Below, piece after piece: positions 44,976 through 61,144 of a DNA stretch of 64,000 nt. The stretch spans positions 1 through 64,000 of the forward strand of contig JAEUMD010000014.1 of NCBI GenBank assembly GCA_016793635.1, read 5' to 3'. The notes under the pieces are model-generated. The model was not told where the DNA came from. It made no database searches and worked only from the letters and a program-made list of their open reading frames with translations. Both the position numbers and the translations under genes were made by a program. This stretch comes from Hyphomicrobiaceae bacterium (GTDB lineage Bacteria; Pseudomonadota; Alphaproteobacteria; Rhizobiales; Hyphomicrobiaceae). Each line of letters begins with the position of its first letter. Positions within the stretch are counted from its first letter, which is position 1.

Positions 44976-45125
44976 TGCCCGCTCCTTTCGCCATCCCGCG
45001 AAAGTGTGGAATTGCCGGCCGAGCAGCAGCGCGGTGCACCAGCCGTAGTGCACGGACTCGGCGGGCCCGACCGGAATGCCGCGCGGCGTCGAACGCGCGA
45101 GGCCCGGAACGGAAAACTTGAGTCA

Positions 45126-45233
45126 TCACCGGAAGAACACGTATTTTACGAGCGCGGCAATGACGAGTGCGACGACGAGCACGCCGAGCAGATGCCCGGA
45201 ACCCATGCCCCACAATATTCCATCGTTCATCAT
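45126..45233 (-). CDS. 35-residue single-span membrane peptide
   Basis: A small frame beginning MMNDGILWGMGSGHLLG and ending in a hydrophobic helix (VLVVALVIAALVKYVFF) then R-stop. It has an excellent ribosome site (GAAGGAGGA about seven bases before the ATG) and lies between the multicopper oxidase and DUF3141 genes on the same strand. Small helices of this kind are common in metal-resistance operons. No function is known. Confidence 0.75.
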   Translation of the reverse strand: MMNDGILWGMGSGHLLGVLVVALVIAALVKYVFFR

Positions 45234-45300
45234 GGATCGTTCCTCCTTCGTATCGGACATGACCTTCGACGCTCGTCCGAACCCAAGCGCTGAAGGCGCC

Positions 45301-46788
45301 TCACGCGATCCGGACCTCGGTCATCATGCCGGTGGCCATGTGGTAGAGGTGATGGCAGTGCAGCAGCCATGCGCCTTTCTGTGCGGCGTCGAAGGCAATC
45401 GTCACCGGTGCATGAGGCGGGACGATCAAGGTGTCTCGCACCGCTCCGGGGAAGCGGCGACCGCCGATGGCCACGACCTGGAAGTGGTGTCCGTGCAGAT
45501 GCATCGGATGCATCATCATCGTCGGGTTCATGAAGGTCATCTCGACGCGCTCGCCGCGCCGCACCTCGAACGGCTGGTGCTCGCCATGAACCTTGCCGTT
45601 GATGGTCCAGCGATACCCCGGCTCCTCGCCCAGCATCACCATGAACGCCTTGTCCGGCTGCCGTTGCGATAGCGGACCGGTGGCCCTGACCAGCGCCTCG
45701 AAACCCAGATCGACCATGCCCTGCGGCTTGTCCGCGGTCGCGGCAAGCTTGCTGATCGTTGCGCCCGGCGTCGACAAGACGATGCCGGTCACGAACTGCG
45801 CCGCCTCGACCTGCGCCAGGACCGGGAAAGCACCACCCTCGCGCGGAATCTCGACGATCAGGTCGATGCGTTGGCCCTGTGCCAATGGGAAGGCCGGTGC
45901 CTCCACCGGTTGGCAAGGCGTGCCGTCCACGGCAATGCAGCGTGCCGTCAGTCCTGGCGTCGAAATGAAGAATGCCGTCGCGGTACCGCCGTTGATGATT
46001 CGCAGCCGAACGCGGCCACCCTTTTCGACAGTCACCGTCTCGGGGTCATCCAAGGTGCGATCGTTCGCCAGGAACGCGTCGTAGCGCACGTCATTGGCGT
46101 GCGTCATGCCCATCATTGGCCCGCTGCCCTGTCCGGGCATGGCGTGCATCATGCCCGGACCATGCTGCATCTGGGGCATGCTTTGCGGCGGCGGCTTCGC
46201 CTTGCTCGATGGCGCACCACCATGCCCTGCGTGGGCATCGCTGCCGCCCAGCTCGGCCAGGATCTCCTGAGGAGATCGGAAGGCGAAGTCGTGCAACATG
46301 ATGACCACGTCGTGCACGTCACCGGCATCCTTCTCGCGGGCCACCATGGGGGCGGCCAGCATCTGCTGCTCGGAAAGCGTATGCGAATGCATCCAGTGGG
46401 TGCCGGCCGTCAGCTCGAAATCGTGCACATCCGCCTGACCCGGGGAAACGGCGCCGCCGCCCGGCCGCGCCCGATCCTGTTCGAAGGGCGCCTTGATCTG
46501 CCCGTGCCAATGCATCTGCAGGGGCTCATCGGTAGCATTGAGCAGGGCTCCCGTCAGCCGGCCTCCCTCGTTCGCGAAAATGCCCTTCTTTCCGTTCCCT
46601 GCAGCTACGCTGAAGACTCTCGCGGCGCGCTTGTTGACCTCGATCGTGCGCGAGTAGACCTTCAATGCAGGCGCGGCGGCGAACGCCGGCAACATCGGCA
46701 TGCCCGTCGTGACGACGCCACCGAAGGCGATACCCGATCGTATAAAGGCCCGGCGGCTCATTGCTCGGTTCATCGTTGTGGTGCTCAT
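45301..46788 (-). CDS. Multicopper oxidase (CopA/CueO-like, Tat-exported)
   Basis: A 495-residue periplasmic laccase-like oxidase that would convert toxic Cu(I) to Cu(II). A twin-arginine signal (SRRAFIRSGIAFGG) ends before APALKVY. Copper ligands are complete: HWHG (93-96), HWMHSH (131-136), HPMHLHGHH near 425 and HCHHLYHM near 475, with a downstream GM as axial ligand. A Met/His-rich insertion (MPQMQHGPGMMHAMPGQG, about 200-232) resembles copper-binding loops of CueO. AAGGAG six bases before the ATG at 46788 decides the start. It is cotranscribed with the RND system upstream. Confidence 0.95.
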   Translation of the reverse strand: MSTTTMNRAMSRRAFIRSGIAFGGVVTTGMPMLPAFAAAPALKVYSRTIEVNKRAARVFSVAAGNGKKGIFANEGGRLTGALLNATDEPLQMHWHGQIKAPFEQDRARPGGGAVSPGQADVHDFELTAGTHWMHSHTLSEQQMLAAPMVAREKDAGDVHDVVIMLHDFAFRSPQEILAELGGSDAHAGHGGAPSSKAKPPPQSMPQMQHGPGMMHAMPGQGSGPMMGMTHANDVRYDAFLANDRTLDDPETVTVEKGGRVRLRIINGGTATAFFISTPGLTARCIAVDGTPCQPVEAPAFPLAQGQRIDLIVEIPREGGAFPVLAQVEAAQFVTGIVLSTPGATISKLAATADKPQGMVDLGFEALVRATGPLSQRQPDKAFMVMLGEEPGYRWTINGKVHGEHQPFEVRRGERVEMTFMNPTMMMHPMHLHGHHFQVVAIGGRRFPGAVRDTLIVPPHAPVTIAFDAAQKGAWLLHCHHLYHMATGMMTEVRIA

Positions 46789-46811
46789 GATCATCTCCTT
46801 GGCAGGACGGC

Positions 46812-47189
46812 TTAGTACTTGGCCTGGGCCGTGGTTCCATCAGGCGCGGTGATCTGGATCGCGCCCTTTGCACCGGGATTGACAGGTGCCGGCGCGGTAC
46901 CTGTGAGCTTCGAGCCGTCGGCTGGCACGAGCTCGAAACGCTGCGACTTCCCGTCGATGACCAGGATGGCGTTGGCCTTGAAGCCGGCAGTGGGGATCGG
47001 CTTGTCATCGGCATCGCTCAAGAACACGGCGACAGCCGACGTGCCATCGACGACAAGCTCGGCGTGATACTTGCCGGCATCGACTCTCAGGCCGCCGTTC
47101 TTCCCCTTGGCCGCCTCGTGGGCGAACGCTGCAGGTGCCGCCACGAGCGCAGCGGCGAGCGACAGCAATGCAAGATGAGTCCGGTTCAT
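46812..47189 (-). CDS. Small periplasmic protein paired with an RND permease
   Basis: A 125-residue protein with a signal peptide (LALLSLAAALVAAPAAFA) and a beta-rich mature domain: GKNGGLRVDAGKYHAELVVDG, AVFLSDADDKPI and KANAILVIDGK. The protein at 63423 has the same arrangement (GKHGGKVVESGHHHLELIAADG), and both genes directly follow an RND permease gene. No known name fits; metal binding by its His and Asp residues is an inference from context. AGGAG eight bases upstream supports the start. Confidence 0.82.
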   Translation of the reverse strand: MNRTHLALLSLAAALVAAPAAFAHEAAKGKNGGLRVDAGKYHAELVVDGTSAVAVFLSDADDKPIPTAGFKANAILVIDGKSQRFELVPADGSKLTGTAPAPVNPGAKGAIQITAPDGTTAQAKY

Positions 47190-47214
47190 GATCGATCTCC
47201 TGGGTTGCTTGACG

Positions 47215-50361
<3,147 letters not shown>

Positions 50362-50371
50362 GCGAGCCCCC

Positions 50372-52057
50372 TCAGCGGATCTGGTTCAGAAGCTCGGCGC
50401 CGGTCGTGACGACACGCTTGCCGGGCTCGATGCCAGCGACAATCAAGACGCGCTCTGCATCGAGCTGCTCGATGCGCACCTCGCGTGGAACGAAGCGCTC
50501 GGCGTTGCTGTGTTCGTAGACGATGCTCTGACCGTTGGCACCGCGAAGGACTGCCTCACGCGGCACTGCGATCCCCGCGCGATCCGTGGTCGTGGTCGCC
50601 AGAACCGTGAGGAACTGGCCGGCGCGCAGACCATTCGTGTCGCCGCGTATCGAGAAATGCACCGGGACGGACTGGTTGCGGTCGGCGAGCCCGGTGCCGA
50701 CGTAGGCGAGCTCGATCGACTTGCCGCCTGCGAAAAGCCCCTGTGCCGAGCCGTTGGTCGACTGCGGCTCGAAGCTCAATGCCTCGACCCAGAGGCGGGC
50801 CGGATCGACGATCTGGAAGATGATCGAGTTGGGCTCGGCCATCTGGCCTGCGACGGCGTTCGAAGCGGCGATGACACCGCCGACAGGGGAGACGAGCGGT
50901 TCCGGCTCCTTGTTGGCGCGCGCCAGGTTTGTCCGCCGCTCGTGCAGGCCCTTCAATTCCAGCTCGGCGTCCTCGAGCTGACCTCTGGCGATGATCTTCT
51001 CGATGGCGCGCAGCCGCTCGACCTTGCGAGAGACGACGGAAATCTGCTGATCCAACTCGCGGGCCTGCTGCTGCTGCGTCGTCAGATCGGCGGAGCTGAT
51101 CGGCGGATGCACATAGGCCAGGACGTCGCCCGACTTGACCGAGGTGCCCAGAGGCTTGAACCCACCAGGCGGCGGCAGCAACCGGCCGCCCACTGCGGCC
51201 TGAACGAGCCCGCTGGCGTTCGGGTCGGGAATGATCCGGCCGGGCAGCTCGATGGCGCGGCGATGGGCCCGTTGCTCGGTGAAGATCGTGCGCAATCCGA
51301 GGATGCGCTGTGTCGGCTTCGGCACGAACAGCGCTCCATCCGGGAACCGCTGTGAGACATCGCGCGCCGCTATCCCGGTTGCAGACGCCCGGGGCCCAGT
51401 ATCGGCCAACGCACCGGTCGGCGTTGCGAACGACAAGGCGGCCAGCAGGATCAGGCCGACGGCCGCACGCCGCCGTCGAAGTGCCAAGGCGGTTACGGCG
51501 ATGCCTGTCAGGAATCCCAGTCCGAGGGTCAGCAAGAGTGACGTGCCGGGCTCTCCGACGCGCTGAGACAGATCCTTGGCAATGGCTGGATCGACGCCCC
51601 ACCACGGGCGCGGCGCTGCTACCGCCTGAGGCTGCGTCGAGAGCGGGACCTTGAGTGTGGTGGTCAAGACATCGACGACACCGTTCGCCGAGATGGTGAT
51701 GGCAAGATCGTGGTTGCCGGGCTTTGACGCAAACGGAGCGGCAACGGTGTAAAGCCCCGGACCTGCCGCAACCGGCTTCAAGATCCCTCCGGGGGAATCG
51801 ATTTCGATCTCGGCGCCGTCGATCGGCTGATTGCCGCGGAACGTGTCGAGATAGATCTCGAGCTTGTTGCCGCGCGCGATGGCGACAAGCTCCAGGTCGG
51901 CCGACGACGCGTCTGCGCGTGGCGCGATTGTGCTCGACGTCGGAGGCGGTGGGGCGCCGTGGTCATGCCCCTCATGGGCGTGAGCCGACCCGGCGCCAAG
52001 GAGTATCGCCACAGACAAGAGCAGCGACATCGCGAGCTTGGTGGGCGGAAACCGCAT
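50372..52057 (-). CDS. RND periplasmic adaptor with fused periplasmic N-terminal domain and two extra membrane helices
   Basis: A 561-residue protein. After a signal peptide ([16 protein letters not shown]) comes [12 protein letters not shown] and a beta domain (about 50-140, [19 protein letters not shown]) like FixH/YtkA domains. Two membrane helices lie at about 173-193 and 198-216, separated by RRRR and followed by an ALADTG cleavage-like site. Then comes a standard membrane-fusion adaptor (about 240-561) with lipoyl motif [23 protein letters not shown], a coiled-coil hairpin (about 335-395) and a beta-barrel. It would link the permease downstream to an outer-membrane channel. The N-terminal part is unusual for this family. 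Confidence 0.88.
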
Positions 52058-52128
52058 GAGGCCTCTCGTTCGTAACAACCGATCGAGGCCGACCCTAACC
52101 CGCGTCGCGTGACTGCGCGTTTCGCGAC

Positions 52129-52144
52129 TGTAACAAATTGTTTC
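52129..52144 (-). promoter_or_regulatory. Direct-repeat site upstream of the RND adaptor operon, probable response-regulator operator
   Basis: On the minus strand GAAACA-attt-GTTACA, two half-sites ten bases apart, begins 72 bp before the adaptor start codon. It shares the consensus GAAACA-N4-G-A-A with three other sites nearby, and a further GCGAAACGC follows on the same strand. OmpR-type regulators bind such 10-bp-spaced repeats. Confidence 0.6.
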
Positions 52145-52197
52145 GCGCCGCCTCCGCGACGGGCAGCGACCCGGGTGATCGCAGCAAAGCGAACCGT

Positions 52198-52213
52198 GAA
52201 ACAATTTGGAATG
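52198..52213 (+). promoter_or_regulatory. Direct-repeat site upstream of the 42-residue secreted peptide gene
   Basis: GAAACA-attt-GGAATG on the plus strand, about 130 bp before the ATG of the small peptide. It shares an 11-base core (GAAACAATTTG) with the minus-strand site at 52129-52144, so the two flank the divergent promoter region. Confidence 0.6.
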
Positions 52214-52342
52214 CGGCAGAAATAACGGTGAAACAGGGCTTTGCTATTGTGACCAGGCTTCGCAGATGCTCACCGTTTCTCTTTGACGGTGTGGTGCAGT
52301 TTGCCGGAGCAGCAACAATCACGCCGCAAATGGAGGTTCATC

Positions 52343-52471
52343 ATGAGACGCATTCTCGTTGGTACCATTCTGATCCTGTCGCTCACCGGCGTCGCCACTG
52401 CGGCGAGTGCCGATCACTGCAAAAAGTGGTCGGACTGCTACTTCGAGGATCAGACAAAGAGCGGTGGCTGA
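52343..52471 (+). CDS. 42-residue secreted peptide, function unknown
   Basis: The product is a signal peptide (MRRILVGTILILSLTGVATA) plus a very short mature part (ASADHCKKWSDCYFED) with two cysteines and a His, ending TKSGG. GGAGG seven bases before the ATG and a regulatory repeat 130 bp upstream support it as a real gene. A perfect 13-bp hairpin lies 28 bp downstream. It may be a small metal-binding or signalling peptide. Confidence 0.65.
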   Translation: MRRILVGTILILSLTGVATAASADHCKKWSDCYFEDQTKSGG

Positions 52472-52498
52472 GGTCAAGAACGGCGTTAGGGCACCCTA

Positions 52499-52534
52499 TT
52501 CCGGCTGCATCGGCATTGCTTGATGCAGCCGGAA
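52499..52534. terminator. Bidirectional hairpin terminator between convergent genes
   Basis: A perfect 13-bp stem TTCCGGCTGCATC / GATGCAGCCGGAA with a 10-base loop lies between the 42-residue peptide gene (plus) and the histidine-kinase stop (minus). There is no strong T-run, but the position and stem strength fit a terminator or 3' RNA hairpin. Confidence 0.65.
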
Positions 52535-52543
52535 ACCTCTTGC

Positions 52544-53854
52544 TCACATTGCGGCCGGCAGGACGACCGTCACCGAAAGACCGCCCTCATCGCGGTTGGC
52601 CAGACGCAGCTTGCCCCCGTTCGCCTCGATATTGTTCTTTGCGATGGTGAGCCCCAGCCCGACGCCGCCGGTGGTCAAGTTGCGAGACTCTTCGAGACGC
52701 ACGAAGGGCTCGAGAACCGCATCGAGCTTTTCAGGCGGAATGCCGGGGCCATCGTCGTCTATTGTCACGACGACGTCATCGCCAACGTGGCGGACCTCGA
52801 CCCGAGCCCGCGTGCCGTAGCGCAAGGCATTCGAAACGAGATTGGAGAGGGCCCGCTTCATGCCGAGCATCCCGGTGTTTACGACGAGATGAGCCGGCGC
52901 CGTCAGCTCTGCGTCGCGACCCATGTCACGTGCGTCGTTGACGATCGTCTCGAGCAGCGCTACCAGGTCGACAGCGCGTCGAGGTTCATCCGGCTGGTCC
53001 CCCTTGAGGTACGAGAGCGTAGCCTCGACCATCTCTTCCATCTCGTCGATGTCGGTCGCCATGGCACGCTGTAGTGCGGGATCCGCAAGATCATCCAGTC
53101 GGAGCCGAAGCCGGGTCAGCGGCGTTCTCAAGTCGTGCGACACCGCTGCCAACGCTTGCGTCCGGCGCGTGACGAGTTCTGCAATGCGCCGTCTCATGTC
53201 GTTGAATGACCGGGCGAGGTGACGCACTTCGCGCGGGCCAGCTTCGGGGACGGAGGACGCGGCGTCATCTGGCGACAGCAGCGTGACGGCATCGGCAATT
53301 TCCCGGATCGGACGGGTCAGCCAGCGCGCCATCAGGAGCGACATGAGCACGACCCCGAGCGCCATCAGGCTAGTCGAGAGCAGCGTGCCGTGACCGGTCC
53401 CGCGAGCGGGGCTCGCCGCGAACAGGCTCACGTTGAGCCAGCTGTCGTCGGGCAACCGAATCGAGAGCAGCGCAACGTGCGGATCGGTGCTGGTGCCGAT
53501 GACGACGTCGCCACTCGTCATGTTCTCGGCGAACCTCCTGATCTGTTCGCCGAGGCCGGTCCAGGCCTCGACGCCGGGACCGCCTGCAACGGCCCCCCTG
53601 CTCGAGTTCCAATGCGCCTCGATGGGCCCGCCGGACAAGTCGTGCGCAAGTGCCTCCCGCTGGTCGCGCGGTGCCAATGCGACGCTGCGCTGGATCGAGA
53701 TGAGGCGCTCGGCAAGGCTCGCTTCATGCGCGCGCGACAATTCCTGATCCAAGGCCCTCTGGTAGGTCCAGAGACTCAACACGTGCACCAGCGTGATGCC
53801 GAGCAGCGACACCAGGATGACGCGCGCCACGATCGTATCGAGCGCGCGGATCAT
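52544..53854 (-). CDS. Sensor histidine kinase of a two-component system (CusS/EnvZ type)
   Basis: A 436-residue inner-membrane kinase. Two membrane segments (about 12-29 and 159-178) flank a periplasmic sensor region of about 130 residues, followed by HAMP (RWLTRPIREIADAVTLL). The HisKA motif has the phosphorylated His in AVSHDLRTPLTRL (H240), and the HATPase domain has N box NLVSNALRYG, DDDGPGIPP and GGVGLGLTIAKN. Its start overlaps the end of the regulator gene by 4 bp. It most likely senses periplasmic copper or silver, inferred from the surrounding genes. Confidence 0.93.
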   Translation of the reverse strand: MIRALDTIVARVILVSLLGITLVHVLSLWTYQRALDQELSRAHEASLAERLISIQRSVALAPRDQREALAHDLSGGPIEAHWNSSRGAVAGGPGVEAWTGLGEQIRRFAENMTSGDVVIGTSTDPHVALLSIRLPDDSWLNVSLFAASPARGTGHGTLLSTSLMALGVVLMSLLMARWLTRPIREIADAVTLLSPDDAASSVPEAGPREVRHLARSFNDMRRRIAELVTRRTQALAAVSHDLRTPLTRLRLRLDDLADPALQRAMATDIDEMEEMVEATLSYLKGDQPDEPRRAVDLVALLETIVNDARDMGRDAELTAPAHLVVNTGMLGMKRALSNLVSNALRYGTRARVEVRHVGDDVVVTIDDDGPGIPPEKLDAVLEPFVRLEESRNLTTGGVGLGLTIAKNNIEANGGKLRLANRDEGGLSVTVVLPAAM

Positions 53855-54612
53855 GCCCGGGTGACCGCCGGCACGAACATGTAGCCCGACCCTCGGATGG
53901 TCTTGATCATGTTCTGGCCGTCCTCGTCCGAGCCGAGCTTCTTGCGCAGCCGGCTCACCTGGATATCGATGGCCCGGTCGAAGCCGGTCGCCATCCGGTG
54001 CTTGGCGCTGTCCATCAACTGATCGCGCGTGAGAACGCGCTGCGGCAGTTCGAGAAACGTCAGCAGCAGGTCGTACTCTCCGGTCGAAAGGTCGACGACC
54101 ACGCCGTTCGGATCATTGAGCTCCCGGCGTCGCGTATCGAGCGACCACCCCTCGAACCGCAGCAAATGACCGCCACCTTCATGTCCCGCGCCCTGTTGAT
54201 TGCGCGTGCGCCTCAGGACCGAATTGATCCGGGCCAGAAGCTCGCGAGGGTTGAAGGGCTTTGCGACGTAGTCGTCGGCACCGATCTCCAGCCCGACGAT
54301 GCGGTCCGTCTCCGTACCGCGTGCCGTAAGCATGATGATGGGGATGGAGGAGCGGGTACGAATCTCCTTGCAAAGATCGAGACCGTTGCCGCCCGGCAGC
54401 ATGATGTCCAGCAGAACGAGGTCGATGGCGGCCGTCTCCAGGACCTGCCGCATCTCTCGGCCATCACGGGCCATGGTCACGCGATGCCCATGCTCGCGCA
54501 GGAATTTTCCTGCGAGCTGACGGATCTGCGCGTCGTCATCGACGATCAGGATGTGCCCGTCGCTACCTGCAGGAGAGGGCTGTGAGCTGAGTTCGGGATC
54601 TTTGGTTGTCAT
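53851..54612 (-). CDS. OmpR/PhoB-family response regulator
   Basis: A 253-residue transcription factor. The receiver domain (about 20-130) has the acidic pocket VDDD (D25, D26), phosphoacceptor D69 in LVLLDIMLPGG, T96 and K118 in YVAKPF. The winged-helix DNA-binding domain (about 155-245) ends in DIQVSRLRKKLGSDEDGQ and IKTIRGSGYMFV. It is cotranscribed with the kinase by a 4-bp overlap. A repeat site lies 64 bp upstream of its start, suggesting autoregulation. Confidence 0.95.
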   Translation of the reverse strand: MTTKDPELSSQPSPAGSDGHILIVDDDAQIRQLAGKFLREHGHRVTMARDGREMRQVLETAAIDLVLLDIMLPGGNGLDLCKEIRTRSSIPIIMLTARGTETDRIVGLEIGADDYVAKPFNPRELLARINSVLRRTRNQQGAGHEGGGHLLRFEGWSLDTRRRELNDPNGVVVDLSTGEYDLLLTFLELPQRVLTRDQLMDSAKHRMATGFDRAIDIQVSRLRKKLGSDEDGQNMIKTIRGSGYMFVPAVTRA

Positions 54613-54675
54613 GGCTAGCGGTCAGTTGTGGCGCCGGAATCTTAGCGCAACATTCGTATCGCCCGGTATCGGTCC

Positions 54676-54691
54676 TGTTTCAAAGTGTTTC
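54676..54691 (-). promoter_or_regulatory. Direct-repeat site upstream of the response-regulator gene
   Basis: On the minus strand GAAACA-cttt-GAAACA, a perfect 6-base direct repeat with a 10-base period, 64-79 bp before the regulator start codon. It is the best match among the four repeat sites in this block. It lies between the divergent regulator and membrane-protein genes and could serve both. Confidence 0.65.
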
Positions 54692-54786
54692 ATAACGCGG
54701 TTCCGACTTGTCCCGACGTGGCCTGCCACTCATGTTCGGCTTCGCGCCAGTGCCGCACGAAGCATAGCTCAGACAAAGGGGCCGAT

Positions 54787-55269
54787 ATGAACCTCAAGGA
54801 TGGGCAATGCCCGGACTGGCCGCTTGCTCTGCGCCGGTATCTTGCTGCGTCGCTGGTTTTGCACCTCGTATGGGAGATCCTGCAACTGCCGCTTTACACA
54901 CTGTGGACCAAGGGCACGCTTCGCGAACAGGCCTTCGCCGTCGTCCATTGCACCGTGGGCGACCTGATGATCGCTGGGCTCTCCCTGCTGGTATCACTCG
55001 CGATTCTCGGTCGACCGACATGGCCGGTGGCGGGAAGCCGCCGCGTGTGGCTGCTGATCGTGCTTCTCGGCGTCGGGTACACGATCTACAGCGAATGGCT
55101 GAACGTCAGTGTTCGCAGGAGCTGGGCGTATTCGGATCTCATGCCGACGCTGCCGGTGCTGGGCACGGGGTTGGCGCCTCTGTTCCAGTGGATCATCGTG
55201 CCTACTTTGGCTCTGTGGCTCGCAGTCGGCCGCGCACCGTGGCGCGATCAGAGTGCCGCCGCGAAGTGA
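54787..55269 (+). CDS. Polytopic membrane protein, function unknown
   Basis: The 160-residue product has four hydrophobic segments (YLAASLVLHLVWEILQLPLY, VGDLMIAGLSLLVSLAIL, VWLLIVLLGVGYTIYSEWL, FQWIIVPTLALWLAVG) and short loops. Conserved-looking His/Glu residues in the first segment (LHLVWE) and the HCTVGD loop could bind metal, but no family was recognised. It is divergent from the response-regulator gene, and its start lacks a strong ribosome site. Confidence 0.7.
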   Translation: MNLKDGQCPDWPLALRRYLAASLVLHLVWEILQLPLYTLWTKGTLREQAFAVVHCTVGDLMIAGLSLLVSLAILGRPTWPVAGSRRVWLLIVLLGVGYTIYSEWLNVSVRRSWAYSDLMPTLPVLGTGLAPLFQWIIVPTLALWLAVGRAPWRDQSAAAK

Positions 55270-55290
55270 CGATCCCGGCGAAGCTGGCCT

Positions 55291-55306
55291 GACACAATTT
55301 GTAATA
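55291..55306 (+). promoter_or_regulatory. Direct-repeat site upstream of the Spy-like gene
   Basis: GACACA-attt-GTAATA on the plus strand, about 204 bp before the Spy-like start. Its context (GACACAATTTGT ... AGACGCGACACGC) closely matches the minus-strand site at 52129-52144 over about 26 bases, including a second GCGA-AC element downstream. Confidence 0.55.
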
Positions 55307-55509
55307 GACGCGACACGCTGGGTTACCGGCGCGCGGCTAGAGTCCTCGGGGCCGGCTCCCTGTCACTGTAGAGGCGACTGGGAGCGGTGGGTGTGGCACC
55401 CAGCCCTAATACAGAGGTCACAAACTACACACGTACCGTAAACCATCGGCTCGACGACGTACCAAACACAGCCCGTCGCCCCCTGCGAGACCAACCGAAG
55501 GAGATCGTG

Positions 55510-56079
55510 ATGCAAAAATTCTTCACACAATTCACCGCTGTAGCTGTCTTGGCGGGACTTCTAATCAGCGGCACCGCATTGGCGCAGCCTGCGCCTGATC
55601 CGCATCACCCGGGTGGTGCTGCAGCCCAGGCGCAGCCGCAGGGCCCAATGCCAGGCGGCACGATGGGTCCCGGCATGATGGGCCGGATGATGGGTGGCGG
55701 GATGATGGGACCAGGCATGATGGACATGATGGCCAACTGCCCGATGATGGGCGGGGGCACGAGCCATGCCGAGGGACGGATCGCCTTCCTGAAGGCTGAG
55801 CTTGCCATCACCGAGGCCCAGAACGCGGCGTGGGAAGCCTACGCAGCACAAATCCGGAAAAACCTGACGGGCATGCAGGACATGCAGAAAACCATGATGT
55901 CGATGATGGACGCGAAATCGCCGGTCGAGCGGCTCGACGTACGCATCGCCATGATGGAGAAGCGCACGCTGGCGCTGAAGGAGATCAAGCCGGCCCTGGC
56001 CGCGCTGTACACCGGCCTCAGCGCGGATCAGCAGAAAAAGGCCGATCAGCTCCTGACCGGCATGGGCTGCATGATGTAG
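55510..56079 (+). CDS. Met-rich Spy/CpxP-like periplasmic protein
   Basis: A 189-residue protein with a signal peptide (FTAVAVLAGLLISGTALA). A Pro/His stretch (APDPHHPGG) is followed by a very methionine-rich segment (about 46-80: TMGPGMMGRMMGGGMMGPG), able to bind Cu(I). The C-terminal helical domain has two LTxxQ-like motifs (LAITEAQNAAW and LSADQQKKADQ) typical of Spy/CpxP periplasmic chaperones. AAGGAG upstream of the ATG supports the start. It probably buffers copper or protects periplasmic proteins. A regulator-type repeat lies upstream. Confidence 0.87.
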   Translation: MQKFFTQFTAVAVLAGLLISGTALAQPAPDPHHPGGAAAQAQPQGPMPGGTMGPGMMGRMMGGGMMGPGMMDMMANCPMMGGGTSHAEGRIAFLKAELAITEAQNAAWEAYAAQIRKNLTGMQDMQKTMMSMMDAKSPVERLDVRIAMMEKRTLALKEIKPALAALYTGLSADQQKKADQLLTGMGCMM

Positions 56080-56135
56080 GTCGCTCGACGCGGGCCCGGC
56101 GCGGCGACGGCCGCACCGAGCTCGCCCAGATCAAT

Positions 56136-59100
56136 TCAGGACGCCGTCGGTCGGCCATGTTGCGCCGACAGCTCACTCTGCGCCGGTGCGGACAGCCGCC
56201 AGCCTTTCACCATCGCGTAGATCGCCGGGATGACGACGAGGGTGAGGATGGTCGACGAGACCATGCCGCCGATCATCGGCACGGCGATGCGCTGCATGAC
56301 CTCCGAGCCGGTGCCGTGGCTCCACAGGATGGGCACCAGGCCGGCCATGATGGCGATGACGGTCATCATTTTCGGGCGCACGCGCTCGACCGCGCCTTCC
56401 ATGATGGCGGCCGCGAGATCGGCGCGCGTCGCCTCACGACCCTCGGCCGCCGCCTTCACCTGCTGCGCCTGCCATGCGTGATCGAGGTAGATTAGCATGA
56501 TGACGCCGGTCTCGGCGGCGACGCCGGCGAGCGCGATGAAGCCGACCGCGACCGCGACCGACAGGTTGAAGCCCATCCACCACATCAGCCACAGCCCGCC
56601 GACGAGCGCGAACGGCAGCGACAGCATGACGATCAGCGTCTCGGTCATGCGCCGGAAGTTGAGGTAGAGCAGCAGCAGGATGACGAGCAGCGTCAGTGGC
56701 ACCACGACCGCGAGGCGCTTCTTCGCCCGCTCGTAGTACTCGAATTGGCCGCTCCAGACGGCATAGTAGCCGGGCGGGAACTTGACCGACGCGGCCACGG
56801 CCTGCTTCGCGTCGGCGACATAGCTGCCGAGATCGCGCTCGCGGGCGTCGACGAAGATGTAGGCGGCAAGCTGCGCGTTCTCGGTGCGGATCGACGCCGG
56901 ACCCTGGACGAGCGAGACCTTGGCGACCTGTCCGAGCGGGATCGAGGCACCGTTGGCGAGCGGCACCAGCACCTCGCGCGAGATCGCCTGCGGGTCGGAG
57001 CGCACGTCGCGCGGATAGCGAACGCTGACGCCATAGCGCTCGCGCCCTTCGACCGTCGTCGTCACGGTCTCGGCGCCGAGCGCGGACGCGACGACCTGCT
57101 GCACGTTGGCGATCGTCAGGCCGTAGCGCGCGAGATCGCGTCGGTCGGGCTCGATATCGAGATAGTAGCCGCCGATGATGCGCTCGGCGAAGGCGCTCGA
57201 CGTGCCGGGCACGGTCTTGATCGCGGCCTCGATCTCACGCGCGAGCCTCTCGATGACCTTGAGGTCCTGCCCGATCACCTTGACGCCGACGGGCGTGCGG
57301 ATGCCGGTCGCCAGCATGTCGATGCGGGCCTTGATCGGCATCGTCCAGGCGTTGGAGACCCCTGGGAACTGCAGCGCCTTGTCCATCTCCTGGATCAGGC
57401 TGTCGATGGTGACGCCCGGCCGCCAGTCCCTCTCCGGCTTCAGGTTGATGACCGTCTCGAACATCTCTGTCGGTGCCGGATCAGTGGCCGTTGCGGCTCG
57501 TCCCGCCTTGCCGAACACACTCTGAACCTCGGGGAAGGTCTTGATGATGCGGTTCTGGATCTGCAAGAGCTCCGCCGACTTTGTGATCGACAGCCCGGGC
57601 AGCGTCGTCGGCATGTACATGATCGTGCCCTCGTTCAGGTTGGGCATGAACTCGGAGCCGAGCCTCGTCGCCGGCCAGACGCTGGCGGCGAGTGTGGCCA
57701 GCGCAACAGCGATAGTGACGCCCTTCGCTCTGAGCACAACTTGAATGACCGGCCGATAGGCGCGGATCAGGATGCGGTTCACCGGGTTCCGGTGCTCGGG
57801 GACGATGCGCCCGCGCACGAACAGGATCATCAGCGCGGGCACCACCGTGACGGACAACATGGCGGCGGCCGCCATCGCGAACGTCTTGGTCCAAGCCAGC
57901 GGCTTGAACAGCAGTCCCTCCTGCGCTTCGAGCGCGAAGATCGGCAGGAACGAGACGGTGATGACGAGGAGCGAGAAGAACAGCGACGGACCCACCTCGC
58001 TCGCCGCCTCGATCAGCACCTCCGTGCGCGGCTTGTCGGGAGGCGCGCGCTCGAGATGCTTGTGCGCGTTCTCGATCATGACGATCGCCGCGTCGATCAT
58101 GGCGCCGATGGCGATCGCGATGCCGCCGAGGCTCATGATGTTGGACGATAGCCCCAAGGCCCACATGCAGGTGTAGGCGACGAGGATGCCGAGCGGCAGC
58201 GTGACGATGGCCACCAGCGCGCTGCGGGCGTGCAGCAGGAATACGAAGCAGACGAGGGCGACGATCACGCTCTCCTCGATCAGCGTGGTTTTGAGCGTCG
58301 CGATCGCACGATGGATGAGATCGGAGCGGTCATAGACCGGCACGATCTCGGTGCCCTCGGGCAGGCTGCCCTTGATCTCGGCGAGCCGGTCCTTGACGCT
58401 GCCGATGACCGACAGCGCGTTCTGGCCGTAGCGCTGCACGGCGATGCCGGACACGACCTCGCCCTCACCGTCGAGCTCGGTGACGCCGCGCCGCTCGTCG
58501 GGCACGAGCTCGACGTGCGCCACATCCTTGATGAGCACGGGCGTGCCGCCTTCCGCCTTCAATACGATCGACTCGATGTCGGCGATGCCCTCGAGGTAGC
58601 CGCGTCCGCGCACCATGAACTCGGTCTCGGCCAGCTCGACGACGCGGCCGCCGACGTCCATGTTCGACTCGCGGATCGCCTCGCGAACCTTCGCGAGCGG
58701 GATGTCGAAGGCGCGCAGCCGGCGCGGATCGACGACGACCGAATATTGGCGGACGAACCCGCCGACGCTCGCGACCTCGGCCACGCCCTCGGCCTTGGCG
58801 ACCGCGAAGCGCACCTGCCAGTCCTGCGTGGTCCTGAGCTCGGCGAGGGTCCGCTTCCTGGCCATGACGGCATACTGGTAGACCCAGCCGACCCCGGTAG
58901 CATCGGGCCCCAGCGTCGGCACCACGCCTTGCGGCAGGTTCCGCGTTGCCGCCGACAGGTATTCGAGCACGCGGGAGCGGGCCCAGTAGATGTCGGTGCC
59001 TTCCTCGAAGATCACGTAGACGAAGGAGACGCCGAAGAACGAGAAGCCGCGCACGACCTTCGATCGCGGCACCGACAGCATGGCGGTCGAGACCGGGAAG

Positions 59101-59297
59101 GTGACCTGATCTTCCACGACTTGCGGCGCCTGGCCCGAGAACTCCGTGAACACGATGACCTGCGTGTCCGAGAGATCGGGAATGGCATCGAGCGGCACCT
59201 TGGTCACCGCATAGAGCCCCGCTCCCGTCGCGAGCACGGTCGCGATCAGGACGAGCATCAGGTTCGAAGCCGACCAGCGGATGAGACGCGCGATCAT
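56136..59297 (-). CDS. cusA: Cu(I)/Ag(I) efflux RND permease, CusA type
   Basis: A 1053-residue inner-membrane pump of the HME-RND family. The N terminus SNLMLVLIATVLATGAGLYAV and PDLSDTQVIVFTEFSGQAPQ match CusA, as does the end LWSHGTGSEVMQRIAVPMIGGMVSS. Transmembrane helix 4 has the acidic IGAMIDAAIVMIENAH motif. It would take copper or silver from the periplasm or from CusB and send it to an outer-membrane channel. No outer-membrane factor gene is visible in the window. It overlaps the adaptor gene by 4 bp and is convergent with the Spy-like gene. Confidence 0.95.
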   Translation of the reverse strand: MIARLIRWSASNLMLVLIATVLATGAGLYAVTKVPLDAIPDLSDTQVIVFTEFSGQAPQVVEDQVTFPVSTAMLSVPRSKVVRGFSFFGVSFVYVIFEEGTDIYWARSRVLEYLSAATRNLPQGVVPTLGPDATGVGWVYQYAVMARKRTLAELRTTQDWQVRFAVAKAEGVAEVASVGGFVRQYSVVVDPRRLRAFDIPLAKVREAIRESNMDVGGRVVELAETEFMVRGRGYLEGIADIESIVLKAEGGTPVLIKDVAHVELVPDERRGVTELDGEGEVVSGIAVQRYGQNALSVIGSVKDRLAEIKGSLPEGTEIVPVYDRSDLIHRAIATLKTTLIEESVIVALVCFVFLLHARSALVAIVTLPLGILVAYTCMWALGLSSNIMSLGGIAIAIGAMIDAAIVMIENAHKHLERAPPDKPRTEVLIEAASEVGPSLFFSLLVITVSFLPIFALEAQEGLLFKPLAWTKTFAMAAAAMLSVTVVPALMILFVRGRIVPEHRNPVNRILIRAYRPVIQVVLRAKGVTIAVALATLAASVWPATRLGSEFMPNLNEGTIMYMPTTLPGLSITKSAELLQIQNRIIKTFPEVQSVFGKAGRAATATDPAPTEMFETVINLKPERDWRPGVTIDSLIQEMDKALQFPGVSNAWTMPIKARIDMLATGIRTPVGVKVIGQDLKVIERLAREIEAAIKTVPGTSSAFAERIIGGYYLDIEPDRRDLARYGLTIANVQQVVASALGAETVTTTVEGRERYGVSVRYPRDVRSDPQAISREVLVPLANGASIPLGQVAKVSLVQGPASIRTENAQLAAYIFVDARERDLGSYVADAKQAVAASVKFPPGYYAVWSGQFEYYERAKKRLAVVVPLTLLVILLLLYLNFRRMTETLIVMLSLPFALVGGLWLMWWMGFNLSVAVAVGFIALAGVAAETGVIMLIYLDHAWQAQQVKAAAEGREATRADLAAAIMEGAVERVRPKMMTVIAIMAGLVPILWSHGTGSEVMQRIAVPMIGGMVSSTILTLVVIPAIYAMVKGWRLSAPAQSELSAQHGRPTAS

Positions 59298-60736
59298 GGC
59301 TTGCGCTCCCGGGGTGGCGAAGCGGGTTCGGCGGTGAAGCCCGACAGCGCCGCCTTGAGGTTGCTCTCGGCATCGATCAGGAAATTCGCGGCCACGACCA
59401 CGCTGTCGCCGGCCTTGATGCCACTGGCGATCTCGACGTAGCCGTCGCCGCGCAGACCGACCTTGACCGGCCTGGGCTCGAAGCGCCCCTCGCCGCGATC
59501 GACGATCACCACCTGGCGGTTGCCGCTGTCGATCAGGGCGGACACCGGCACCGAGAGGCGCTCGGGCTCGCCGTCGCCTGCGTTGATCTCCACGTCCGCG
59601 AACATCTCGTGCTTGATGCGGTGATCGGGATTGGCGACCTCGACCCGCACCTTGGCCGTGCGGGTCGCCATCTCCAGCTCGTGCAGGATGAAGCTGACGC
59701 GCCCGTCGAACGCCTCGTTCGGGAAGGCGCGGAAGGTGACCTTCGCCTTGGAGCCGATGCGGACCTGGGCCAGATCCTGCTCGGCGACGTCGGCGACCAC
59801 CCAGATCGACGACAGATCGGCGAGGCGCAGCATCTCGTCACCCGCCTTCATCATCATTCCTTCGATCGCCTTCTTCTGCATGACGACGCCGGACACGGGT
59901 GATGGCCAGTCGAACGAGATGACGGGCTCGCGCGTGCGCTTGAGCTCGTCGATGACCGCCTGCGGTAGCTGCAGGTTGTGCAGTCGTTGCAACGAGCCCT
60001 TCTCGTCGCGGTTGCCGCTGGCGTTGACCGCGATGCGATAGTCGACCTGCACCTTGACCATGTCCGGGCTGTAGACGCGGAACAGCGGCTCGCCCTTCTT
60101 GACGTGCCGCCCGGTCTCGTTGACATGGAGCTTCTCGATGAAGCTGTCGGCGCGCAGCGCGACGGTCAGCAGCGTGCGCTCGTCGGGCTTGGCGACGCCC
60201 GGCACCCGGATCGGCCGCACGAGGCGGCGCAAAGCCGCCGGCTCGGTGCGGACACCGGAACGCTGGATCTTGGCGATGCTGACCTTGACGGTGCCGTGAT
60301 CCTCCGCTTCGCCGGCGTAGACCGCTATGTAGTCCATGCCCATGTGATCCTTCTTCGGCACGGGCGAGGTGTCGGGAAGCCCCATCGGGTTGCGGTAGTA
60401 GAGGATCTTCGGCGGAGCGCCATTGGCCGGCTTCGGTGGCGCTTTCGGCTTGGCTACGGCAAAGTCGGCCTCCTGGTCGTCGTAGACCGGCATGTAGTCG
60501 CGGCCGTCGCCGGTCTTCCTGGGCTCCGGGGCGAACTCGGTGTCGCGGTCGGGATGCCTCCAGTAGAGCACCTTGCGATCCCTCGGCGGCACAGGGGACT
60601 TGGTTGCGACGTCGGGCTTCGGGCTCGTATCGGAACCGCGCGGATCGGGCCACTTGCCGGCTCCGAGACGGTAGCCGGCAAGGAGCGCGGTGAGGATCGC
60701 CGCAACGGCGATCCCCCGCTTGACGGGCGTTCGCAT
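59294..60736 (-). CDS. cusB: Cu(I)/Ag(I) efflux periplasmic adaptor, CusB type, with two heavy-metal-binding domains
   Basis: A 480-residue membrane-fusion protein. An N-terminal anchor (GIAVAAILTALLAGYRLGAG) is followed by two short heavy-metal-binding domains: residues about 57-85 (VLYWRHPDRD ... GRDYMPVY, a degenerate copy) and about 111-140 (ILYYRNPMGLPDTSPVPKKD then HMGMDYIAVY, the standard copy). The adaptor body has lipoyl/hairpin elements (RHVKKGEPLFRVYSPD) and a C-terminal membrane-proximal domain. It hands metal to CusA. Both domains keep Tyr and the C-terminal Met-Asp-Tyr type motif; only the second has HMGMDY. Confidence 0.94.
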   Translation of the reverse strand: MRTPVKRGIAVAAILTALLAGYRLGAGKWPDPRGSDTSPKPDVATKSPVPPRDRKVLYWRHPDRDTEFAPEPRKTGDGRDYMPVYDDQEADFAVAKPKAPPKPANGAPPKILYYRNPMGLPDTSPVPKKDHMGMDYIAVYAGEAEDHGTVKVSIAKIQRSGVRTEPAALRRLVRPIRVPGVAKPDERTLLTVALRADSFIEKLHVNETGRHVKKGEPLFRVYSPDMVKVQVDYRIAVNASGNRDEKGSLQRLHNLQLPQAVIDELKRTREPVISFDWPSPVSGVVMQKKAIEGMMMKAGDEMLRLADLSSIWVVADVAEQDLAQVRIGSKAKVTFRAFPNEAFDGRVSFILHELEMATRTAKVRVEVANPDHRIKHEMFADVEINAGDGEPERLSVPVSALIDSGNRQVVIVDRGEGRFEPRPVKVGLRGDGYVEIASGIKAGDSVVVAANFLIDAESNLKAALSGFTAEPASPPRERKP

Positions 60737-60745
60737 GTCCGCCCC

Positions 60746-61144
60746 TCAGTCCTTGGCCCGGAACACGACGACGCCCTCGACCGTCTCGGCCTCGCCCGGC
60801 ACCTTGGCCATGATGCGGAAGGCCCAGCCGCCGGCCATGGTGAGATCGGCCTTGAAGGCGTAGACGCCTGCGTCGGCCGACGGCATGGCCGCGTGGTTGG
60901 CCGTCATGTCGGCCATGTTGTCGGGGGCCATATCGAGGCGCGTGCGGAATAGCACCGCACCAGGGACGGGCTTGCCGGTCGGCTTATGCACCAAGCGCAC
61001 GGCGAGCTCGCTGCCGGCACCGTTCTTGACGTCGACCTTGAGCGGCTGGAACTCGTAGTCCGCTGCGCCGGCGAGCGCGCTTGCGGCGCTCGCCGAGAGC
61101 GCGAGACCGATCAGGCCGGCGCGAAGGGCTGTGTGAAGGGTCAT
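60746..61144 (-). CDS. FixH/YtkA-like periplasmic protein
   Basis: A 132-residue protein with a signal peptide (AGLIGLALSASAASALA) and a beta-sandwich domain typical of FixH/YtkA-like proteins: EFQPLKVDVKNGAGSELAVRLV, then DMAPDNMADMTANHAAM with Met/His candidates for copper, and GGWAFRIMAKV. It lies 9 bp upstream of cusB and so is cotranscribed. Such proteins commonly accompany copper efflux genes and may bind copper. Confidence 0.85.
   Translation of the reverse strand: MTLHTALRAGLIGLALSASAASALAGAADYEFQPLKVDVKNGAGSELAVRLVHKPTGKPVPGAVLFRTRLDMAPDNMADMTANHAAMPSADAGVYAFKADLTMAGGWAFRIMAKVPGEAETVEGVVVFRAKD

Follow-up and report, generated by a model that had tools for sequence, protein, structure and literature searches.

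In a 64,000-nucleotide stretch of the genome of a Hyphomicrobiaceae bacterium (contig JAEUMD010000014.1, the whole of which is referred to below as the window), we identified four copies of a composite operator, located 5' to the genes for a resistance-nodulation-division (RND) adaptor, a 42-residue peptide, an OmpR-family response regulator and a Spy-like protein. The source genome comprises 3.82 Mb in 26 contigs, of which the window is contig 7, and is 95% complete. The four sites are confirmed as real, both by their ranks under a matrix fitted without the window and by their conservation in relatives. It is highly probable that they are operators of the regulator encoded amid them, which would act at each promoter as two dimers and activate transcription on a metal signal.

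Structure of the four operators

An initial annotation of this DNA had described a direct repeat, GAAACA-N4-G-A-A, at four places: 52129-52144 (minus strand; GAAACAATTTGTTACA), 52198-52213 (plus; GAAACAATTTGGAATG), 54676-54691 (minus; GAAACACTTTGAAACA) and 55291-55306 (plus; GACACAATTTGTAATA), each sequence being given here on its motif strand. GAAACA is exact at three of these sites, but the site at 55291 reads GACACA. The literal G-A-A second half, coded as GAAACANNNNGNANA, is uninformative: the window contains no match to it, and across the genome it occurs 10 times, compared with 6 occurrences of the reversed pattern used as a control. The positions of the sites upstream of the four genes named above were borne out, given an adaptor start at ATG 52057, which is backed by homologs.

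The single half-site pair that had been taken as the unit corresponds to the upstream half of the operator, but the full unit is larger. It is about 37 bp long and consists of four in-phase half-sites, roughly GAAACA-N4-GWWACR-N5-GNAAYG-N4-GNNAC, followed by 10 bp and a -10 sequence, TANNNT, in register (Table 1). In the 42-residue peptide operator the last half-site (52230-52235) is shifted one base downstream relative to the other operators, leaving a gap of 9 bp before TANNNT. An agreement of about 26 bases claimed between the sites at 52129 and 55291 amounts to 27 of the first 37 positions, and corresponds to the downstream half-site pair.

The architecture was examined in an alignment, A1, of 22 promoters registered on the first site alone, or 23 once the peptide promoter of locus L070 was added; L178/L204 and L089, which are one record, were entered once, and the adaptor promoter of genome G006, with a degenerate first half-site, was kept out. 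In the 23 promoters, half-site 1 has a direct self-similarity of 4.26, 4.09 and 2.96 of 6 at offsets of +10, +21 and +31, and of at most 2.5 of 6 at all remaining offsets from 6 to 43, in agreement with the 10-bp direct repeat originally proposed. The peptide promoters have their fourth half-site at +32, and their peaks are at +10, +21 and +32. Conservation extends through all four half-sites and the -10 (G12 and A15 in 23 of 23 rows, G23 and A26 in 22, G33 in 17, A36 in 21; T49 in 21, A50 in 22, T54 in 19, TA together in 20 and TANNNT in 17), although the rows are mutually related, so that these column counts are not independent events.

The same comparison bears on whether the element might be an inverted repeat, with a ACAAATTGT core, for a dimeric repressor such as one of the TetR or MarR type. 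The adaptor site is nearly palindromic, and its reverse strand is the fifth-best match to the first dimer. However, the regulator promoters read GAAACA-N4-GAAACA, which is a direct repeat and not a palindrome, and the direct half-site values at +10 and +21 exceed the best inverted value of 3.61, itself ascribed to the ACAATTTGT core. We therefore rejected the palindrome as a description of the element, and a repressor of this kind is most improbable.

Counted from the -10, the downstream half-site pair spans about -38 to -23 and overlaps the -35 position. With this overlap, a fixed distance to the -10, and TA in register in 20 of 23 promoters, the arrangement is the layout expected of a class II activator of the OmpR/PhoB type.

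Searches of the window and the genome

Simple patterns are poor guides to these sites. With up to three mismatches, GAAACANNNNGWAACA matches the window 25 times where 27.4 matches are expected, and with up to two mismatches it matches the genome 142 times against 110 for a reversed control pattern. The tighter TGAAACANNNTGWWACR, with up to one mismatch, occurs twice in the genome, both times among the four sites, and its reversed control also occurs twice. Because these counts are close to background or to the reversed control, the loose consensus is not distinctive by itself, and conservation decides the case.

A held-out matrix was built from 12 promoters of divergent relatives, with the window, L070 and L199 excluded; the training promoters were picked for resemblance in the first half and for homologous neighbouring genes, and the window was unused in fitting. 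Under this matrix the four sites rank 1 to 4 of about 128,000 window positions, scoring 40.5, 40.1, 36.1 and 23.2 bits, and the next-best score in the window is 9.05 bits. The maximum was 16.1 bits over 60 Markov resamples of the window and 19.6 bits over 60 column-permuted matrices. When each promoter class was left out in turn the four sites were still at the top every time, and with the downstream part of the matrix alone the top three positions were three of the four sites.

A second model, R1, was built from A1 using sequence only, with the window's own sites included, and the 3.82 Mb genome was scanned with it. It found exactly the four sites (E = 8.4e-10, 4.1e-9, 7.6e-9 and 7.6e-7) and no further site below E=0.39. 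Thus, on the question of whether the motif occurs at random frequency genome-wide, which the initial annotation had raised, the loose pattern is near chance but the full operator model returns the four sites alone. That the four matches reflect chance or a low-specificity AT-rich motif would accord with the near-background pattern counts, but is contradicted by the held-out ranking, by uniqueness in the genome and by conservation across genera; its probability is negligible.

The next match of R1 in the genome (C12:234977, E=0.39) is a weak element upstream of a paralogous adaptor. The same degenerate element, seen as L207:6974-7029 (in the genome, from C12:234974), has four half-sites, GTTACA, GAAACA, GAAATC and GCAACG. 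Adaptors in G015 (C21) and G007 (C94) likewise have weak operator-like matches upstream. These degenerate elements look like a sister class of operators for paralogous regulators.

Conservation in related genomes

The sites are retained where the genes they precede are closely related. At the adaptor promoter, a first-dimer match with no more than two mismatches is present in 11 of the 12 genomes whose adaptor is at least 56% identical, on the same strand and at -58 to -101; the twelfth, G006, has a degenerate copy scoring 33.3 bits. Among 23 adaptors with less than 50% identity, such a match was found in four, and in one with no more than one mismatch; the adaptor of G062 (47% identical) has no match with up to two mismatches. 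At the regulator promoter, a first-dimer match with at most one mismatch lies close upstream in all eight genomes with a regulator at least 75% identical.

Across the 103 genomes of the family, scanned with R1 under strict filters, the operator was found in 24 genomes at E<=0.1 and in 17 at E<=1e-3, and a regulator scoring at least 300 bits in 21. Operator (E<=1e-3) and regulator occur together in 16 genomes and are both lacking in 81 of the 103; the genome with the operator only, G126, is 54% complete. Fisher's test gives p = 1.5e-13 for this co-occurrence, a value that ignores kinship and is not for use at face value. The co-occurrence is also circular in part: R1 was built with promoters from 10 of these 17 genomes, and G001 is near-identical to the window. 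Of the six operator genomes that remain (G108, G109, G114, G118, G120 and G126), five have the regulator, at 60-61% identity.

A scan of the order with R1 gave matches at E<=0.01 in 18 of 397 genomes, 13 of them outside the family. In 11 of these 13, one of which (G053) was in R1, the best match adjoins homologs of the regulator, the kinase or the adaptor; the two exceptions rank with the weakest matches. This count rests on the best match per genome, and G339 and G384 have second matches. The link between regulator and targets proposed in the initial annotation is thus supported, as homologous promoters keep the sites and, in scans of other genomes, the operator turns up next to homologous regulator systems.

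The open reading frames (ORFs) that follow further operators suggest what the regulon responds to. They encode an HMA-domain P-type ATPase and an outer-membrane efflux protein (L072), a cupredoxin (L293), a YtkA protein (L299), and LTXXQ and DUF3141 proteins (L202). Small ORFs also follow operators in L293, L294 and, twice, L298, and have no match in a Pfam scan. The predicted targets thus include copper or silver homeostasis genes, namely a CusA/CzcA-family RND pump, a multicopper oxidase and an LTXXQ protein in the window, and an HMA ATPase and a cupredoxin in relatives. Because an HMA ATPase, a cupredoxin and YtkA follow operators elsewhere, and because of the window's own genes, copper or silver is likely to be the signal of the regulon.

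Proposed regulation

In the mechanism that we propose, the kinase would respond to a metal in the periplasm, in all likelihood Cu(I) or Ag(I), by phosphorylating the regulator, and two regulator dimers would occupy the four half-sites of each promoter head-to-tail. The upstream half-site pair would serve as a strong anchor, and the downstream pair, which would be weaker, would lie over the -35 position, so that the regulator would bring in RNA polymerase at promoters that have a -10 but at most a rudimentary -35. The transcription units switched on would be the operon of the RND adaptor and pump, probably together with the multicopper oxidase gene; the genes for the Spy-like periplasmic chaperone and for the small peptide, which contains Cys and has a signal-like N-terminus; and the operon of the regulator and kinase, which would constitute positive autoregulation. 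Binding, phosphorylation, activation as opposed to repression, and the identity of the metal are what we infer from these sequences.

Repression is the nearest mechanistic variant: the regulator might cover the -35 region and be released by metal. The downstream half-sites do overlap the -35, where a bound protein could presumably also block polymerase. However, the spacing to the -10 is the same in all four window promoters, as activation from the -35 predicts, and we consider release from repression very unlikely.

Several observations weigh against activation by the local regulator at operators of this form. Of 48 regulator homologs with less than 70% identity, 47 are without a first-dimer match (up to one mismatch, within 400 bp upstream), so that the wider regulator family does not share autoregulation as a rule. 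The regulator of G015, at 68% identity, has no first-dimer match upstream. Five family genomes (G007, G035, G068, G072 and G121) have a regulator of at least 300 bits and, in the strict-filter scan, no operator at E<=1e-3. The downstream half of the operator is also less constant outside A1. In an out-of-sample set of 35 further sites picked by the first dimer alone, the third half-site is kept (G23 in 30 of 35, A26 in 29 of 35), and the fourth is weaker (A36 in 14 of 35), as is the -10, with TA in register at 15 of the 35 sites and a complete TANNNT at 7. This set comes from 21 loci, was de-duplicated by the first 40 letters and includes chance and reverse-strand matches; L295 (which repeats L293), L200, L207, L208, L211, L302, L313 and L315 were left out of the count. 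The downstream half thus varies between subgroups. Within the window, no operator was found upstream of the multicopper oxidase, CusB, the 160-residue membrane gene (in its own direction) or the RND pump RND1, and the neighbouring CusA and CusB genes, by the scan upstream of CusB, are without one.

Finally, the genome encodes paralogous OmpR-family regulators, 55% (C23:46806) and 47% (C12:247832) identical to the local one, that could share the sites. The four operators might then be bound mainly by a paralog, or jointly, with the local pair as just one input, and the degenerate element at C12:234977 indicates that the sites of paralogs may look similar. Against this, most of the genomes in which a scan found operators have them next to the local type of regulator or a homolog of it, and in the same-genus genomes G002 and G003, where no regulator homolog reaches 200 bits, the scan gave no operator at E<=0.1. 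Control by a paralog is accordingly unlikely, and regulation by the regulator encoded amid the sites remains the preferred interpretation.

Comparison with known systems

The assignment of the regulator to the OmpR family by the initial annotation agrees with its DNA-binding domain, whose nearest solved relatives include RstA and OmpR. Its recognition helix, FDRAIDIQVSRLRKK, begins at residue 211 and aligns with the OmpR and RstA helices. At what we take, by our own mapping, to be the three base-contacting positions of RstA, it would carry Arg, Ile and Arg. Klebsiella RstA contacts bases in a tandem TACA site through Arg199, Val203 and Arg207 (PMC4117788). The RstA box of gammaproteobacteria, TACATNTNGTTACA (PMC4117788), and OmpR boxes predicted in A. 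caldus, such as GTTACAACTTGTTACATAAG (PMC9861516), likewise have tandem TACA-type half-sites with a period of about 10 bp.

Among NCBIfam models, EnvZ is the best match of the kinase and OmpR that of the regulator, with both scores below the equivalog cut-offs (kinase, NF007004, 206.4 bits against 415; regulator, NF007005, 237 bits against 331). OmpR and RstA control porins and acid-shock genes. In contrast to EnvZ/OmpR and RstB/RstA, the predicted targets here are metal-efflux and copper-type genes. The metal-type RND pump, multicopper oxidase and Spy-like neighbours recall CusRS, CopRS and CzcRS, although the heavy-metal subfamily models score far below cut-off (regulator, TIGR01387, 136.3 against 279.2; kinase, TIGR01386, 111.2 against 292.55).

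A comparable system is AgrRS of Cupriavidus metallidurans, a two-component system for silver resistance with RND efflux, the small periplasmic proteins PrsQ1/2, autoregulation and a type II promoter position (PMC7380067), features that resemble those predicted here. The AgrR box is described there as a 6-4-6 inverted repeat, ATKACANNNNTGTMAT, with extra direct repeats at some operators (PMC7380067), whereas all half-sites here are direct. The second hexamer is mostly GWWACR and not TGTMAT, which separates these operators from the AgrR type.

The pho box of PhoB takes the place of the -35. It is built from 11-nt direct repeat units placed head-to-tail, with contact to sigma-70 (PMC4415409). Two head-to-tail dimers with the second over the -35 would be compatible with activation by way of sigma-70, which is reported for PhoB. 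From the pho box the present operators differ in half-site sequence and in having four half-sites spaced 10-11-10. CenKR of Rhodobacter sphaeroides is likewise an alphaproteobacterial system with an OmpR-family regulator and a direct-repeat motif, TGA-N8-TGA, which 31 of 59 transcription units have no more than 100 bp upstream (PMC9275681). Its half-site differs from that described here, and its regulon concerns the envelope and division. UzcRS of Caulobacter crescentus is an alphaproteobacterial two-component system for uranium, zinc and copper. ChIP-seq and a motif logo have been reported for UzcR (PMC12864828).

Among the literature matches listed, which covered few subscription journals, there was no description of this operator or regulon. 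We rate the type of system as familiar and the regulon as apparently undescribed, with the 42-residue peptide gene as its freshest part. We lean slightly towards the view that these genes represent an undescribed subfamily, derived from OmpR/EnvZ, that serves periplasmic copper or silver defence across many Hyphomicrobiales, with its own four-half-site operator overlapping the -35 and a regulon readable from raw DNA, new copper-handling peptides included. If so, the 42-residue peptide and the small proteins that follow operators in L293, L294 and L298, with signal-like N-termini and Cys or His residues, would be such peptides. Without any experiment, the analysis connects a regulator with the targets that it probably controls, R1 finds promoters of the same kind in other genomes, and unannotated small proteins are flagged as probable copper-response genes. 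The system would also provide a clean test case for how OmpR-type half-sites came into metal defence.

Genes of the metal-efflux block

The operators lie within a metal-efflux island at 45301-60736, the features of which are listed in Table 1.

Table 1. Operators, -10 hexamers and genes of the metal-efflux island, in window coordinates
Feature	Coordinates	Strand	Remarks
Multicopper oxidase	45301..46794	-	Pfam Cu-oxidase families
RND pump (RND1), CusA/CzcA family	47215..50361	-	TIGR00914, 797.7 bits (cut-off 701.45)
RND periplasmic adaptor (HlyD1)	50372..52057	-	Pfam HlyD_D23 and HlyD_3
-10 hexamer TAGGGT, putative adaptor promoter	52092..52097	-	10 bp past last half-site; register in A1
Predicted operator, RND adaptor-pump operon	52108..52144	-	GAAACA, GTTACA, GAAACG, GTCACG
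Predicted operator, 42-residue peptide gene	52198..52235	+	GAAACA, GGAATG, GAAATA, GAAACA; conserved in L070, L199
-10 hexamer TATTGT, putative peptide promoter	52245..52250	+	Register in A1
42-residue peptide gene	52343..52471	+	Coding-type substitution pattern, 3 genomes
Sensor histidine kinase	52544..53854	-	HAMP, HisKA, HATPase_c; overlaps regulator gene
OmpR-family response regulator	53851..54612	-	Pfam Response_reg 112.7 bits, Trans_reg_C 71.7 bits
-10 hexamer TAAGAT, putative regulator promoter	54639..54644	-	Register in A1
Predicted operator, regulator-kinase operon (autoregulation)	54655..54691	-	GAAACA, GAAACA, GATACC, GATACG
160-residue membrane-type ORF	54787..55269	+	Divergent from regulator gene
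Predicted operator, Spy-like gene	55291..55327	+	GACACA, GTAATA, GACACG, GTTACC; conserved in L070, L202, L301
-10 hexamer TAGAGT, putative Spy-like promoter	55338..55343	+	Register in A1
Spy-like LTXXQ protein	55510..56079	+	Pfam LTXXQ, 64.8 bits
CusA	56136..59297	-	
CusB	59294..60736	-	

The response regulator consists of a receiver domain and a C-terminal winged helix, and both Pfam matches exceed the cut-off. Judged by its position, Asp69 is likely to be the residue that is phosphorylated. The RND pump gene lies 10 bp downstream of the adaptor gene, and the multicopper oxidase, on the same strand, is presumably co-transcribed with it. Between the pump and the oxidase there is a 125-residue ORF (46812-47189, minus strand) without a match in a Pfam scan.

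The 42-residue ORF has a coding-type signature, with 10 of 20, 12 of 19 and 16 of 24 differences at third positions in three pairwise comparisons. Two genomes of another genus encode the peptide at 81-88% identity, and the L070 copy has its stop codon placed differently. Its N-terminus is signal-like as judged by eye and is followed by two Cys in the C-terminal part; a Pfam scan gave nothing above cut-off. The 160-residue membrane-type protein recurs in relatives, with 54-93% identity outside the genus, and a Pfam scan likewise gave no match above cut-off.

From its -10 to the start codon the Spy-like gene has a leader of about 165 nt (55344-55509), in which there is no Rfam match; the corresponding leader of L202 is possibly very short. 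A structured-RNA reading of the region was rejected: over 45000-61000, Rfam yielded a single match, which is below threshold (E=0.35) and lies at 45816-45997, remote from the sites.

A comparison of 45000-61000 with L069 and L070 showed that G001, another genome of the genus (7% contamination), has a near-identical copy of the island. The RND pump is 96% identical in G022, which belongs to another genus, and the same-genus genomes G002 and G003 lack close regulator homologs. For these reasons the island looks accessory and was possibly moved horizontally.

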